From an uncultured Rubritalea sp. (GTDB taxonomy: Bacteria > Verrucomicrobiota > Verrucomicrobiia > Verrucomicrobiales > Akkermansiaceae), in NCBI GenBank assembly GCA_937923145.1, contig CALAJT010000027.1, positions 1 to 64,000 on the forward strand: a stretch of DNA of 64,000 bases. Reading direction: 5' to 3'. The notes below the pieces were generated by a model. That model did no database searches. It was not told the DNA's origin and saw only the letters and a list, made by a program, of their open reading frames with translations. This document shows, piece after piece, positions 4,168-13,078 of this stretch. The position numbers and the translations under genes were made by a program. The stretch's first letter is position 1; the number at the start of each line of letters is the position of its first letter.

Positions 4168-5021
4168 AAGCATATTTAGCAATTAAAGTAACATTTTTCT
4201 GTAAATCAGCATGTTACATGCTACTTTTTGAAGTGAACAATAGAACTTACTTATCAACAGCCGATTGAAATCTCCTAAGTAAATATAATTTTAAGATCTG
4301 GTACTTCTAGACATGGAAGGGAGTGTGAAAATCAGAGGCTTAATATTGAAGCAATGATCTTTGTGCTGCGCATTGGTATTCCATGGCGCGATCTACCAGC
4401 TAAGTTTGGCAAATGATCTAAGGTTTATTCTCAATTCAGAAGATGGTGTATTAAAGGTGTGTGGGATGACGCTCTTCAGGAGCTTTATCTGGAATTTTCA
4501 GATTGCTAATATGTGATGATTGACAGCTCTATAATGCGTGTTTATCAGGATGGTAGTAATCCAAAAGGAGGTCAGTATAGGCAGGCTATGGGCAAGTCAA
4601 AGGGAGGACTTAGTTCTAAGATACACATGGCTTTTGATGCTCTAGGATACCCTTTGAGTTGTATTATTACGGGAGGGGAGAGGCATGATAGCACTCAAGC
4701 TACAGCTCTTCTAAAAAGGCATCTAAAACAAAATAGTTTTGCGTTGTTAGATGCAGGCTATGAGAGTGACGATATTCGTAAGTTTGTGAACAATAAGAAC
4801 TCTAACTCCGTCATAGCTTACCGCGAAATAGACTAAATATTCCTGAGTTTGACAAGCATATCTACAAGGAAAGGCATAAAGTAGAAAACCTCTTTCAAAA
4901 GCTCAAACGATTTCGAAGAATAGGAACGAGATACGAGAAAAACCACAATCTATTCAAAGCAATGGTTTCCTTAGCCTCGATTCTTCTATACATTGAGCAC
5001 TAATTAGCAAACATGCCCTAG
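4168..5021 (+). mobile_element. Degenerate IS5-type insertion sequence, copy 1
   Basis: Boundaries come from comparison with a second copy at 39988-40435. The right end is GCAAACATGCCCTAG at 5007-5021. The left end is a degraded counterpart (GCATATTTAGC at 4170-4180 followed by AATTAAA, matching copy 2). The interior encodes a dead DDE transposase. CTAG at the right end may be part of the terminal repeat or of a target duplication, as seen in IS5-related elements. Left boundary uncertain by several bases. Confidence 0.75.
4309..5003 (+). pseudogene. IS5-family transposase, inactivated
   Basis: Reading from 4309 gives typical IS5/IS427-like transposase text: RHGRE, FVLRIGIPWRDLPAKFG, then a TGA, then FRRWCIKGVWDDAL, then a TAA, then the DDE segment beginning IDSSIMRV (first Asp) with ALLDAGYESDDIRKF (second Asp). 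After a TAA at 4834 the frame shifts, and from 4836 the C-terminal part KVENLFQKLKRFRRIGTRYEK (catalytic Glu) runs to TAA 5001-5003. At least two nonsense mutations and one frameshift make it non-functional. An ATG at 4513 opens a 107-codon frame, but that is only the middle of the enzyme. Confidence 0.85.
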
Positions 5022-6035: not shown

Positions 6036-7943
6036 CTAGGACTTTAAAGTCCGGTAATCATCCGTCCTAACAGTGATTCCTTCATCATCTAGTCTCTCTA
6101 GTAATGGCATGAGGACTTTACGAGTAGTGCCTATCTGCTGGCGGATGTCGCTGGCGGTGCCCTTGGTTGTAGTCGTTAGATAGCTTATGACTGCTTGCTT
6201 AGCGGCTTCGTAGTGGGATGCTTCAAGTAGTGCTTTGGGATCCAGCTCGATTACTTTTCCACTACGGATTAGGAATGTGAGCGCCTGCTGAGCTTCTGTA
6301 GTAGGAGCTAGATCGACTCTAGCAGGTGGGGTGAGGTTAGCGGATTTTAGATCTGTTAGGATTCTAGATGCAAGTATCTCTAGGTGAACTGGTAGCTCCA
6401 GCGAGTGATCCGCATTAGCTATTCCGTCCTTAATCTTGCTATAGCCGTTATCTGTTAGATGCTTTTCAATATGATCTGATAGTGATGGGTGTATCCCTTC
6501 ATCGACCATACTAGAGCGCCATGTTTCGATAGGCATAGTTGGTGTATCTGGCTCTTTAATATGGAAGCTGTCGATGATGCTAGCCGCAAGATCGATAGCT
6601 GACTTCCATCCTTTAGGATCGATGATGTTGTCGCCACGCTGGGTGACTTTCTTTTCCTTGATCAGCTTAGCTATCGTTTGTTCAGTGTACTTGTTATTGT
6701 AAGGGGAGTTTACGATAGGTTGTGTGCTAGAAAGGATTGGCTTTTTAGTAAGCTCGGTGAGGATGATTTGACGTAGATTATCTATAGACTCTGCACGATC
6801 TGTTAGAAATGATTTACGTCTATCAGAGCGGAACTGTCTAGGCTCAGCGAGGGCGTCTAGAATAATGCCGCCGCCTAGAGTTCCTTGCTGTGCGCCATCT
6901 CGGATGACGAAGCGGTCTCCGACACAGGCTGTAATAGGAGTTTCTAGTCGGAGCTGGGCATAAGAGTCTTCTCCAGGAGCTAGCTGAGACGTAGAATGCA
7001 ATATAACTCTAGCTCTAGTACGTGAGGTTCCGTGGTGGAGGATCACGGTCTCAGTGTGCTTTAGAGGACGCTTAGTGGCTGACTGACCTGTGATAGATCG
7101 GTCTTGGCGACTGAGTGAGATATCTAGCGTGGAGGTCGGAATGAGTGAGTTAGTTTTCGTAATCACTGAGCCTCGCTGGACACCAGGTTTACCGCGTTCA
7201 TTTAGTGTGAGGTCTGGGACATTGAGTGCTGTGCGCATACCGTGCGAGGCGGTTTCTACTTGTGTAGAATGATTTTGGATCCCGCGTATGTTAGAGCTGA
7301 TTTTTTCTGGCATACAGTAGATTGTATCACCTTTGCTGATGCTTCCTCCTGTTAGTGTACCGGTAACTACGGTGCCAATTCCTGTAGGGGAGAAGGTACG
7401 GTCTACTGAGAGTCTTGGAATATGGTTTTTAGGCTGCTTTTTTAGAGTCTTGATACGCTCTAAAATTTCCGCTTTTAAATCATCTAATCCAGCTCCAGTG
7501 TGAGAAGATACAGGAATCATTGTGACGTCTTCAAGTGTAGTGCCAATGAGATCTTCCTTAACCAATTCCATGGTGAATTCGATGTCTTCCGCTATGTCGG
7601 CTTTTGTAAGAGCGATGATTACATTTTCTACTCCTAGGAAATTTAATATCTGTAAGTGTTCCTCTGACTGCGGCATCCAGCCATCATCGGCAGCTACGAT
7701 AAAGATGGCTATATCGAGAGATCCTACGCCTGCGACCATGTTGTTGACAAAGTCAGCATGCCCTGGGACATCGATAATACCTAGCTCGTGATCTCCAATA
7801 GTGAGGTGGGCGAAACCTAGCTCGATCGTGACGCCTCGCTTCTTTTCCTCAGGTAGTCGGTCTGGATCAGTGCCGGTAAGCGCTTTGATGAGTGAGGACT
7901 TGCCGTGATCGATGTGACCAGCTGTTCCAAGTATGATGTGCAT
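6036..7943 (-). CDS. selB: Selenocysteine-specific translation elongation factor SelB
   Basis: 635 residues. The GTPase domain opens with [13 protein letters not shown] (G1), then [10 protein letters not shown] (G2), DVPGH (G3) and TKAD (G4), the SelB variant of the EF-Tu pattern. The C-terminal third contains the winged-helix repeats that bind the SECIS hairpin in mRNA. SelB delivers Sec-tRNA to UGA codons next to a SECIS element. Together with selD at 12026-13078 it shows selenoprotein synthesis; selA and tRNA-Sec are not in the window. The infA-like gene lies 48 bases upstream on the same strand and is probably cotranscribed. Confidence 0.95.
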
Positions 7944-8952: not shown

Positions 8953-9966
8953 ATGAAAGAAATTACTCTCAAATCTCCACTAGACATGCATCTTCACCTT
9001 CGCGATGAAGAGATGCTGAAGCTGGTCACTCCACTGACTACGCAGACTTTTGCAGGGGCAGTTATTATGCCTAATCTGGTGCCTCCAGTCGATACTCTTG
9101 AGGCTCTTGTTTCCTATCGCGAGCGTATTACCGCAGCTCTAGGAGATGATGTTTTTAAACCCTACATGGCACTATTTTTTCGTGATTACTCAGAAGCTGA
9201 ATTAGCCGCTGCTAAGGATGAAATGATAGGTATCAAGCTTTATCCAGCTGGAGCCACTACTAATAGTGAGGCTGGAGTGAAAGCTCTCGATGCCGTAGAG
9301 CCTACATTTAAAATGATGGAGGAGATGGGCATTCCCCTCATGGTGCACGGTGAAACGCATGGCTTCGTAATGGATCGTGAAAAAGAATTTCTAGCGAGCT
9401 ACGAATATCTAGCGAAAAAATTTCCTAAACTACAGATTACGATGGAACACATCACTACTGCAGACGCTGTAGATCTAATGGGCAAATATGAGAACCTAAG
9501 AGCCACAGTGACTCTTCAGCACCTTATCATCACACTGGATGATGTAGCGGGTGGTATGCTTAATCCTCACCTGTTCTGCAAGCCAATAGCCAAGCGTCCA
9601 GAAGACCGTGAAGCACTTTTACAGGCAGCTTTAGACGCGAATCCTAGTCTGATGTTCGGCAGCGATAGTGCGCCGCATCCATTAAGCAAAAAAGAATGTT
9701 GTGGCTGTGCTGCTGGTGTTTTTACAGCACCTCTAGCTCTCGCCCGTTTAGCTCAGTTATTTGATAAACATGACAAACTAGAGAATCTTCAAGATTTCGT
9801 GTCGGGGAATGCTCAGCGACTCTATGGAATTACACCTTTGGAAAAAAAGGTGAAGCTAGAGAATACTCCATTCGAGGTTCCCTCTGCCTACACAGGCCAT
9901 GGTCAACATGTAGTCCCAATGCATGCTGGCGAAACTTTAGATTGGTCAGTCACTCATATTTCATAA
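8953..9966 (+). CDS. pyrC: Dihydroorotase
   Basis: 337 residues, the size of the E. coli PyrC type. Catalyses reversible ring closure of carbamoyl-aspartate to dihydroorotate in pyrimidine synthesis. The N-terminal DMHLHLRD supplies two zinc-binding histidines, [17 protein letters not shown] carries the carboxylated lysine, VHGETHG and MEHITT supply further ligands, and [13 protein letters not shown] holds the catalytic Asp. moaA begins 9 bases after its stop. Confidence 0.96.
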
Positions 9967-9975
9967 ATTCTTAGT

Positions 9976-10983
9976 TTGGACACTCTAGATCAGCTTAAAA
10001 GACCGCTTAGAGACTTGCGGATATCGGTCACGGATCGATGTAATTTCCGTTGTCGCTACTGTATGCCAGTGGAGGTCTTTGGGGCAGATTATCAATTTCT
10101 ACCTAGAGAAGAAATATTACGATTCAGTGAGATAGAGCAGATAGCCAGATCATTTGTTTCTCTGGGTGTGAACAAACTTAGAATCACTGGTGGTGAGCCT
10201 CTATTACGTAAGGATCTAACAGATCTAATCGCTAAACTTTCGCAGTTAGAAGGTGTAGATGATATAGCGATGACTACTAATGCAGCTCTCTTAAAAAAGT
10301 ATGCTGTAGGGCTTAAAGAAGCAGGACTTCACCGAGTTACAGTTTCGCTTGATTCATTAGACCCAGAGATTTTCGCAGCTATGAATGGCGTAGGTGCTAA
10401 GCCCGCGAAAGTGGTAGAGGGTATCGATGCTGCTCTAGCTGCTGGGCTGAAGGTTAAGCTCAACACAGTGGTCAAGAAATCTGTGAATGAGCATGGGGTC
10501 ACTGATCTAGTAGAGTTCGCTAGTGAGAGGGCAATACCTATCAGATTTATCGAATACATGGATACTGGTAATGTGAACGGATGGAAAATGGATGAAGTCG
10601 TTCCTTCTACTGAATTGTTAGAGGCTTTGATTAAGGATTTCCCGCTTATTCCAAGAGATAATAAACTGGGGTCGACTGCAAAAAATTATCATTTAGAAAC
10701 TCAGCAAGACGGATTCGAAGTAGGTTTCATAAGCTCAGTCACGCAGCCGTTTTGTAGTGATTGTAATCGTGCTAGACTTTCAGCCGATGGACACGTCTTT
10801 ACCTGTCTATTCGCAAGCCTAGGAGCGGATGTGAAAGGTCTACTTAGAAGAGGTGCTACGGAGGCAGAATTGCTAGATTTTCTCAGCGCTATTTGGAATA
10901 AGCGAACTGACCGCTACTCCGAACTTCGCAGTGATTCTACTGTGGATTTACCTAAGGCAGAAATGTCGTATTTGGGAGGCTAA
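9976..10983 (+). CDS. moaA: GTP 3',8-cyclase MoaA (molybdenum cofactor biosynthesis)
   Basis: 335 residues from a TTG start at 9976, the only sensible start after the pyrC stop. Radical SAM enzyme for the first step of molybdopterin synthesis. CNFRCRYCMP holds the first 4Fe-4S cluster (CxxxCxxC), LRITGGEPLLRKD the SAM-binding GGE motif, and QPFCSDCNRARLSADGHVFTC the second, GTP-binding cluster. The C-terminus ends in MSYLGG, the double-glycine tail required for activity in this family. Its presence implies molybdoenzymes elsewhere in the genome. Confidence 0.96.
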   Translation: MDTLDQLKRPLRDLRISVTDRCNFRCRYCMPVEVFGADYQFLPREEILRFSEIEQIARSFVSLGVNKLRITGGEPLLRKDLTDLIAKLSQLEGVDDIAMTTNAALLKKYAVGLKEAGLHRVTVSLDSLDPEIFAAMNGVGAKPAKVVEGIDAALAAGLKVKLNTVVKKSVNEHGVTDLVEFASERAIPIRFIEYMDTGNVNGWKMDEVVPSTELLEALIKDFPLIPRDNKLGSTAKNYHLETQQDGFEVGFISSVTQPFCSDCNRARLSADGHVFTCLFASLGADVKGLLRRGATEAELLDFLSAIWNKRTDRYSELRSDSTVDLPKAEMSYLGG

Positions 10984-10992
10984 AAATGTGGC

Positions 10993-11020
10993 TTGCTAGC
11001 TGTGTTTTATTGGCTAATAA
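10993..11020 (+). promoter_or_regulatory. Candidate promoter of phoH
   Basis: TTGCTA at 10993-10998 and TAATAA at 11015-11020 with a 16-base spacer. The ATG of phoH begins 9 bases after the -10 box, implying a very short leader. Judged by eye only. Confidence 0.35.
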
Positions 11021-11028
11021 TTTAGCTC

Positions 11029-12024
11029 ATGGAAAGTGTCGTTACAAATGAAGATGAAGCTAGTGTGGAACTTAAACTAGATTTTGAGACTCCACAGTTT
11101 TTACATGCTTTGTTTGCTAATGAAGCTAAGGAACTTAATTACTTAAAAGAGAAGCTAGGAGTCTCAGCCGTCACTCGCGAAGGCTGGATGTTACTTAAAG
11201 GTGACAAAGAAAGCGTTGAGAAAGCTAAGCAAGCATTTAGCGATCTAGAGGAGGCGCGAAGGAGTGGGAATGAACTGACGGTGAAAGAATTTAGAATGGC
11301 AGTGGACGTCGTTGCTAGAGGTGGAAAGACAGGTGTTTCGGCTATGACTAAGCTCAAGCTGTTAGGTAATCGTGGGCGTAAGCCTGTGGTGCCGAGGACT
11401 CCACAGCAGTCTAAGTATCTGCAGGCGATGTTAGAGAATGATGTGGTCTTCGGACTTGGTCCAGCGGGTACAGGTAAGACCTATTTAGCGATGGCTATGG
11501 CTCTTCATATGCTCAAGGAAAAGCTAGTCAGCCGAATTATACTCACACGACCAGCTGTGGAAGCAGGGGAGGCACTAGGGTTTTTACCAGGTGATTTACA
11601 AGAGAAAGTGGCACCTTATCTAAGACCTCTCTATGATGCCATGCATGATATGTTAGATCCTGATACAGGGAAGCGATACATGGAGGACGGGACTATTGAA
11701 ATCGCACCGCTTGCTTATATGCGAGGCAGGACATTAGCGAATAGTTTTGTGATTCTTGATGAAGCGCAGAATACCACTCCTGAACAGATGTTCATGCTTC
11801 TGACTAGAATCGGTGAAGGCTCCCACTGTGCAGTTACAGGAGATAGCTCACAGATCGATTTAAAGAAGGGGGTGCGTAGTGGATTATTGGAGGCGCAGGA
11901 AGCTTTGGTAGGTGTTAAGAGCGTTGAGTTCATACACTTTAAAGCTGAAGACGTGGTCCGACATCCTGTCGTAGCTCGGATTATCCAAGCATACGACAAG
12001 CACCGTGAATCTAAGGTTCTGTAG
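11029..12024 (+). CDS. phoH: PhoH family ATPase
   Basis: 331 residues. An N-terminal RNA-binding-like region (about 1-110) is followed by a PhoH ATPase core with Walker A GPAGTGKT, a Walker B-like VILDEAQN and the family motif RPAVEAGEALGFLPGDLQEK. PhoH proteins are cytoplasmic ATPases, often next to ybeY, linked to ribosome/RNA quality control. A ybeY gene does not follow here: the stop is one base from the convergent selD stop. A second PhoH-type protein with a PIN domain is at 41029-42552. Confidence 0.9.
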   Translation: MESVVTNEDEASVELKLDFETPQFLHALFANEAKELNYLKEKLGVSAVTREGWMLLKGDKESVEKAKQAFSDLEEARRSGNELTVKEFRMAVDVVARGGKTGVSAMTKLKLLGNRGRKPVVPRTPQQSKYLQAMLENDVVFGLGPAGTGKTYLAMAMALHMLKEKLVSRIILTRPAVEAGEALGFLPGDLQEKVAPYLRPLYDAMHDMLDPDTGKRYMEDGTIEIAPLAYMRGRTLANSFVILDEAQNTTPEQMFMLLTRIGEGSHCAVTGDSSQIDLKKGVRSGLLEAQEALVGVKSVEFIHFKAEDVVRHPVVARIIQAYDKHRESKVL

Positions 12025-12025
12025 T

Positions 12026-13078
12026 CTATCTAAGAACGATCGACTTCTCCCCACGCTCGACCATCTGACCGATTTCTACTGCGCAAAGTGAGTTATGCTG
12101 ATAAAGTATGTCTAATACTTGAGACTTGTTTTCTGGTGCTACAGAGAGCAATAGTCCACCTGATGTCTGCGCGTCTGCTAGAAGCATCTGGATATCCTCT
12201 GTGGTATCGCCTATGTCTAAGTATGAGCTAACATTTATTAAGTTTTTCTTAGACCCTCCTGGGACGAACCCTTGGTCGATGAACTGATAGACTTCATCTG
12301 ATAGAGCTGGAATAGAGCTACAGTTCAGAACTGCTGTCGCGTTAGAGCTATCGCATATTTCACGAAGGTGTCCGAGTAAACCGAAGCCTGTGACGTCAGT
12401 ACAGCCATTGACTAGATCCTTCTCAGCAAGCTCAGCACCTGAAGTATTAAGAGTGATCATAGATTTAATAGATAAGTCGCTAAGAGCCTCCGAGCATTTA
12501 TCCTTTTTAACCGCAGTTGCTATAATTCCTGTTCCTAGTGGCTTAGTGAGGATGAGAACATCTCCCACCTGAGCGTGTGCATTGGCAGTAAAGCGATCTG
12601 GATGGACGATACCTGTGACTGATAGCCCGTAAATGGGCTCAGGATTCTTGATAGTATGTCCACCTACTAATGAGCAGTTTGCTTGCTTCACCATTTCGGC
12701 TCCGCCTTTAAAGATAGCCTGGATGTCATCGAGACTGATTTTGTCATCAGGCATCCCCGCAATAGCCATCGCAGTGATCGGCTTGCCTCCCATGGCGTAA
12801 ACATCTGATAAAGAATTAGCTGCCGCTATCTGTCCGAAGAGATAAGGATCATCTGCTATAGGGGTGAAGAAATCAAGCGTCTGAACGAGAGCTGTCGTCT
12901 CATTGAGTAAATAAACACCAGCATCATCCGCTGTTGCAGATCCAACTAGAAGGTTAGGGTCATTATTACTAGGCAGGTCGCGCAAAACTTGCGAGAGGGA
13001 TGCCGGATCTAGTTTAGATGCTCATCCTCCGCAGGAGGCCAAAGAAGTGAGTTTTACCGATTGATTTAATGATTTCAT
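12026..13078 (-). CDS. selD: Selenide, water dikinase SelD, itself a UGA-encoded selenoprotein
   Basis: Makes selenophosphate from selenide and ATP, the Se donor for Sec-tRNA. A conventional ORF finder starts at TTG 12985, but the true frame begins at ATG 13078 and runs through an in-frame TGA at 13024-13022. The N-terminus then reads KLTSLASCGGUASKL, placing the TGA-encoded residue (codon 19) at the position of the catalytic Cys/Sec of SelD, with the conserved downstream Lys (Lys22). Full length is 350 residues, the normal SelD size. The remainder has the AIRS-like ATP-binding pattern (SATADDAGVY, VGGHTIKNPE, TDVTGFGLLGHL). selB at 6036-7943 supplies the decoding factor. Confidence 0.93.
12981..12993 (-). 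promoter_or_regulatory. Candidate bacterial SECIS hairpin in selD
   Basis: On the coding strand CGCAA-GTT-TTGCG forms a perfect 5-bp stem with a 3-base loop beginning with G-U. The loop G lies 34 bases after the UGA, within the 16-37 base range I recall for bacterial SECIS elements, whose apical loop typically carries a G. The hairpin is short, so a longer imperfect stem may exist. Confidence 0.55.

Follow-up and report, generated by a model that had tools for sequence, protein, structure and literature searches.

Results

A selD frame with a single in-frame TGA

We analysed a window of 64,000 nucleotides from an uncultured Rubritalea sp., taken from a genome assembly of 2.7 Mb in 53 contigs that is 92% complete. 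On its minus strand the window encodes selD (12026..13078). The frame runs from ATG 13078 to TAG at 12028-12026 and contains a single in-frame TGA at 13024-13022, that is, at codon 19. When this codon is read through as a residue, the product comprises 350 aa, begins with MKSLNQSVKLTSLASCGGUASKL and carries a predicted selenocysteine (Sec) at position 19. It scored 381.3 bits against TIGR00476 (cut-off 125) and 377.3 bits against NF002098 (cut-off 299), and its two domains correspond to PF00586 and PF02769 (Pfam).

The best solved relative of the product is E. coli SelD (PDB 3u0o, E 8e-80, residues 6-340). In this alignment U19 falls on Cys17 and Lys22 (13013..13015, minus strand) on Lys20, two residues with a catalytic role in the E. 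coli enzyme. Cys16 (13031..13033, minus strand) forms the first residue of a CxxU motif. E. coli SelD differs in having Cys17 for Sec19 and Gly14 for Cys16, while the Lys is common to both. The initial annotation had placed the TGA within SCGGUASKL of the minus-strand frame from ATG 13078, at the point where SelD enzymes carry their catalytic Cys or Sec; the read-through translation and the alignment with 3u0o both agree. It had also expected an automatic start at TTG 12985 that forfeits the active site. This is how the mechanical ORF list has the gene: selD begins there with 319 aa, the first 31 codons are dropped, and U19 and K22 are consequently both lost from the product.

The gene for the selenocysteine-specific elongation factor, selB (6036..7943, minus strand, 635 aa), was identified by TIGR00475 (300.3 bits, cut-off 242.25) and has a C-terminal SelB-wing_3 domain (PF09107, residues 594-633). 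The gene and the end of selD are 4.1 kb apart, as the initial estimate of about 4 kb had it. Between them, on the opposite (plus) strand at 8953-12024, lie pyrC, moaA (TIGR02666, 375 bits) and a phoH-like gene. A short plus-strand ORF at 4513-4836 gave the impression, on reading, of a piece of an IS5-type transposase.

SelD across the order

Our relatives set comprised 189 genomes of the order, the genome of the window included. SelD-like matches were listed down to an E value of about 4e-9, and 56 loci were read, counting the window copy. TGA was found in 51 of them, of which 38 belong to clade A (motif C-A/G-G-U-A-S-K-L) and 13 to clade B (motif T-C-G-U-A-A-K-I); four are single-domain loci with Cys, and one is a fusion-type locus with Cys. 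L065, a fusion-type locus whose frame spans 763 aa, is among the 56 but was kept out of the single-domain counts. Outside the 56 remained long fusion-type matches (G161:C148, G101, G130, G043, G152, G039 and G098) and two C-terminal fragments (G138:C12 and G178:C747). All seven SelD loci from titled relative records (uncultured Rubritalea, other Akkermansiaceae or Verrucomicrobiales MAGs, and Persicirhabdus sediminis) carry TGA. Two of these, L080 and L081, lie on contigs as long as G132:C29 and G163:C6, which thus seem to be the same ones over again, leaving five further loci.

The position of the UGA is kept across species among the 56 loci read, exchanging with Cys. This bears on the reading of the gene as a pseudogene or a sequencing error, in which a Cys codon was mutated or misread to TGA. 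Such a change needs a single base, and the window comes from an assembly in 53 contigs. Against it, 51 of the 189 genomes have a SelD with TGA at the codon 19 position among the matches listed, and so many separate assemblies refute an error. Furthermore, the matched SelD stretch is otherwise free of stops in the genomes with TGA-SelD, with the exception of G012, where a TAA stands ahead of the first Met. We regard this explanation as practically negligible. A frameshifted N-terminus lacking Sec in close relatives, which had been named as grounds for rejecting a selenoprotein, was not what we found, as the relatives carry the same in-frame TGA.

The relatives also speak to the possibility that the TGA is a true stop and that the working protein is a shortened SelD-like product from TTG 12985. 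The mechanical ORF finder does propose this start, but it removes the counterparts of E. coli Cys17 and Lys20. Moreover, clade A relatives with an overall identity of 43-72% retain about ten residues ahead of the TGA (KLTSLxSCxG or a close variant), and TTG 12985 is a conserved Leu codon, either TTG or CTG in every one of the 38 clade A rows, located where the 3' arm of the hairpin described below begins. We consider such a shortened product highly improbable.

Stop-free, long SelD-related frames of 749-806 aa were observed in seven selA genomes without TGA-SelD (G023, G039, G043, G098, G101, G130 and G152), and one of 772 aa accompanies a TGA-SelD in G161. The 749-806 aa frames appear to be oxidoreductase-SelD fusions of the kind reported in PMC2398784 (in excerpt).

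A hairpin downstream of the UGA

Downstream of the TGA, on the minus strand at 12978..12996, lies a predicted bSECIS hairpin with an eight-pair stem, seven pairs of which are formed in the window (one T-C mismatch), and the loop GTT at 12988-12986. The five-bp core CGCAA-GTT-TTGCG spans 12993-12981. The loop G, 12988, is 34 bases past the last base of the TGA, with 33 bases between them. According to the excerpt of PMC13188914, the bSECIS model has a 3-nt loop beginning with G, a spacing of 16-37 between UGA and loop, and a free energy of -7.5 kcal/mol or lower. The window hairpin fits this geometry in its GTT loop, five-bp core and spacing of 33. Its fold energy is -12.1 kcal/mol over 54 nt and -5.5 kcal/mol for the 27-nt hairpin alone, set against the model threshold of -7.5. 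Taken by itself, the window hairpin did not stand out: 38 of 200 dinucleotide shuffles folded at least as well (z -0.92), and synonymous recoding gave P values of 0.058 for pairs and 0.104 for energy. Rfam at the gathering threshold reported only the tRNA family, at tRNA-Phe, over the window, and no family on the SelD hairpin. The case for a SECIS element therefore rests on the family alignment. The initial description of this hairpin, with its loop G 34 bases downstream, agrees with these positions.

For the covariation analysis we used the 38 clade A loci among the 56 read (37 distinct), whose sequences can be aligned without a gap over 54 bases counted from the TGA. The eight-pair stem is paired in 97.3% of the 296 cells, and the loop is GTT or GTC with an invariant G. 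Five of the eight stem pairs have changes on both sides (33 cells versus 8.1 expected by shuffling). On four of five measures none of 500 shuffles came up to the observed value, and on the fifth (further pair types) two of 500 did, with the caveat that sequences of common descent can outscore shuffles even where there is no structure. When the stem partners were slid by 1-3 columns, pairing dropped to 24-60%, and RNAalifold predicted the identical stem from the clade A alignment. At columns 36 and 40, covariation joins third and first codon positions, linking Gln (CAA/CAG) with Leu (TTG/CTG), and is thus largely synonymous. When codons are recoded at random to synonyms, 5.3 pairs are expected in the clade A loci, which in fact form 7.8; singly, 28 of the 38 reach P < 0.05 and 10 miss it. 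The hairpin is a real feature of the clade A family.

The four Cys loci gave 5.3 pairs versus 4.8 expected in the same test. Two of them, the close homologues L030 and L033, form 5 and 4 of the 8 pairs, which is no more than chance would give, and their loop G is gone. L030 (genome G044) and L033 (G020) are Cys-SelDs of two genomes of one genus, in which selA and tRNA-Sec are kept.

The remaining 13 TGA loci (L052-L061, L063, L064 and L066), clade B, make up a second Sec-SelD group of the order with the motif TCGUAAKI. In these more distant loci, the clade A stem was absent when sought at the same place (3.5 pairs versus 3.9 expected under synonymous recoding). With 13 of the 51 TGA-SelD loci lacking it at this place, the hairpin cannot be called universal, and the SECIS of clade B SelD seems to lie elsewhere. 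Other hairpins fold in the clade B region downstream of the TGA.

Genes for selenocysteine synthesis and insertion

The genome encodes SelA (502 bits), a tRNA-Sec (60.6 bits, cut-off 47 bits; tRNA-SeC with anticodon tca according to ARAGORN) and a 2-selenouridine synthase (342 bits). With selA, selB, selC and selD it carries the complete bacterial selenoprotein set. Absence of selA and selC had been put forward as evidence that would count against a selenoprotein; selA and tRNA-Sec are both in the genome.

Across the order, selA was matched with an E value of 1e-40 or less in 60 of the 189 genomes, with the curated cut-off exceeded in 59. Such a match occurs in 50 of the 51 genomes with TGA-SelD versus 10 of the 138 others, with TGA-SelD scored among the matches listed. 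A Fisher test of this association takes related genomes as independent, so we set its P value aside. In G005, an 83% complete genome and the only one with TGA-SelD but no selA match, tRNA-Sec is present. With stricter filters, at which weak matches are lost, tRNA-Sec was found in 46 of the 189 genomes (38 of the 51 with TGA-SelD and 8 of the 138 others). The ten selA genomes without TGA-SelD comprise two with Cys-SelD (G020 and G044), seven with the long frames described above, and G048, a 75% complete genome without a clear SelD match.

We considered whether the UGA might be read as another residue, Trp or one inserted by a near-cognate tRNA, without SelB. We found nothing in favour of such read-through. 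It is at odds with the full Sec machinery and with the covarying hairpin and its invariant loop G, and Cys occupies this position in four of the four single-domain non-TGA homologues read, which makes it extremely improbable.

Elsewhere in the genome, a SelW-like gene (L072, G000:C15:85899-86090, minus strand) has an in-frame TGA within a CxxU motif (CSMU). The loop of the hairpin after this TGA is just 11 nt away, nearer than the usual 16-37. A SelW-like match with TGA was present in eight of ten relatives searched. This gene is a probable second selenoprotein of the genome, and SelD is therefore probably not the sole one. The formate dehydrogenase model gave four matches at E 1e-20 or better in the 92% complete assembly, none of which reaches the cut-off or holds a TGA; two of ten relatives searched (G134 and G166) have a match over the cut-off with TGA. 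Sec-decoding organisms without FdhA have Sec-SelD, as stated in the excerpt of PMC1794560, and the matches of our genome fit this statement.

A CxxU pair at the active site

All 38 clade A loci have a Cys at -3 from U, and none of the 13 clade B loci does; these have Cys at -2. Some Sec-SelDs can thus do without the CxxU pair. The close Cys-type homologues L030 and L033 keep the pair as CxxC. Two further Cys-SelDs, L062 (G002) and L051 (G025), are of the same family and order as the window SelD and occur beside a 2-selenouridine synthase. They differ from it in that Cys stands in place of Sec, position -3 holds no Cys, the stem does not exceed chance, and their genomes gave no match to selA at E 1e-40.

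CxxU is uncommon in single-domain SelD, with about 5.6% of single-domain Sec-SelDs in the GOS set (PMC2398784, in excerpt). When the phylum was searched with a DNA pattern of the CxxU form, 11 of 387 genomes gave a match, and the backward-read control gave four matches. Four of the 11 are SelD genes of the order already known (G000, G088, G091 and G132); since the control also gave four matches, the other seven are indistinguishable from chance.

The pair, strictly kept in clade A, is the least ordinary detail of this SelD and has some novelty. We tentatively suggest that the clade A active site may be a redox pair, Cys16-x-x-Sec19, and not a lone Sec, an idea that we consider possible but rather unlikely and against which the clade B Sec-SelDs, without Cys at -3, speak. 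If it were true, a Cys16-Sec19 selenenylsulfide could protect the Sec or help to accept selenium from a carrier.

Discussion

The window gene has a conserved in-frame UGA that aligns to Cys17 of E. coli SelD, a covarying family hairpin behind it, and a genome with the genes for the complete machinery. We put the probability at about 0.97 that it encodes a Sec-containing SelD, in which the UGA would be decoded via SelB and the hairpin and Sec19 would be used in selenophosphate synthesis. We infer the following course of events. A ribosome translating selD would reach the UGA at codon 19, where SelB, bound to the hairpin with its loop 33 bases downstream, would bring Sec-tRNA-Sec, and selenocysteine would be inserted. 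In the protein, Sec19 together with Lys22 in the N-terminal loop would convert selenide and ATP to selenophosphate, which would supply SelA for Sec-tRNA as well as 2-selenouridine synthase. At low selenium, translation would end at codon 19, so that making SelD would require the selenophosphate that it yields.

SelD with Sec has been known as a class for a long time, and this gene is a further member of it (PMC4561486, in excerpt). The initial annotation had said as much, in line with the excerpts of PMC4561486, PMC1794560 and PMC13188914. Bacterial Sec-SelD/SPS proteins, as described in the excerpts of PMC1794560, PMC4561486 and PMC2398784, are likewise single-domain, have Sec at the Cys position with a bSECIS-like hairpin just downstream, and occur with the Sec machinery; nothing essential differs here, where the active site has the CxxU form. 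Among 223 reference prokaryotes, 26% were reported to have SelD, with Sec in 19% of these SelDs and always at the same position (PMC4561486, in excerpt), and 28 Sec-SelDs are recorded from the Sargasso Sea set (PMC1088965, in excerpt). The string 'verrucomicrobi' is absent from the main text of PMC4561486, PMC1794560, PMC2398784, PMC1088965, PMC12013277, PMC13188914 and PMC5029168, and no title among the literature matches listed concerns verrucomicrobial SelD.

The value of the finding lies mainly in annotation: the gene start and the active site are fixed, where a plain ORF caller cuts 31 residues. Selenoprotein genes are usually misannotated (PMC4561486, in excerpt), and NCBI annotation was correct for 195 of 298 known selenoprotein genes in 20 genomes (PMC12013277, in excerpt); mis-annotation of this selD in practice is plausible. 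The initial annotation called it very likely by default, which holds for a mechanical ORF finder and otherwise outruns the evidence. As for the organism itself, selenium is very probably used in its proteins and probably in its tRNA, and its SelD would need selenium to make the very compound that it supplies.
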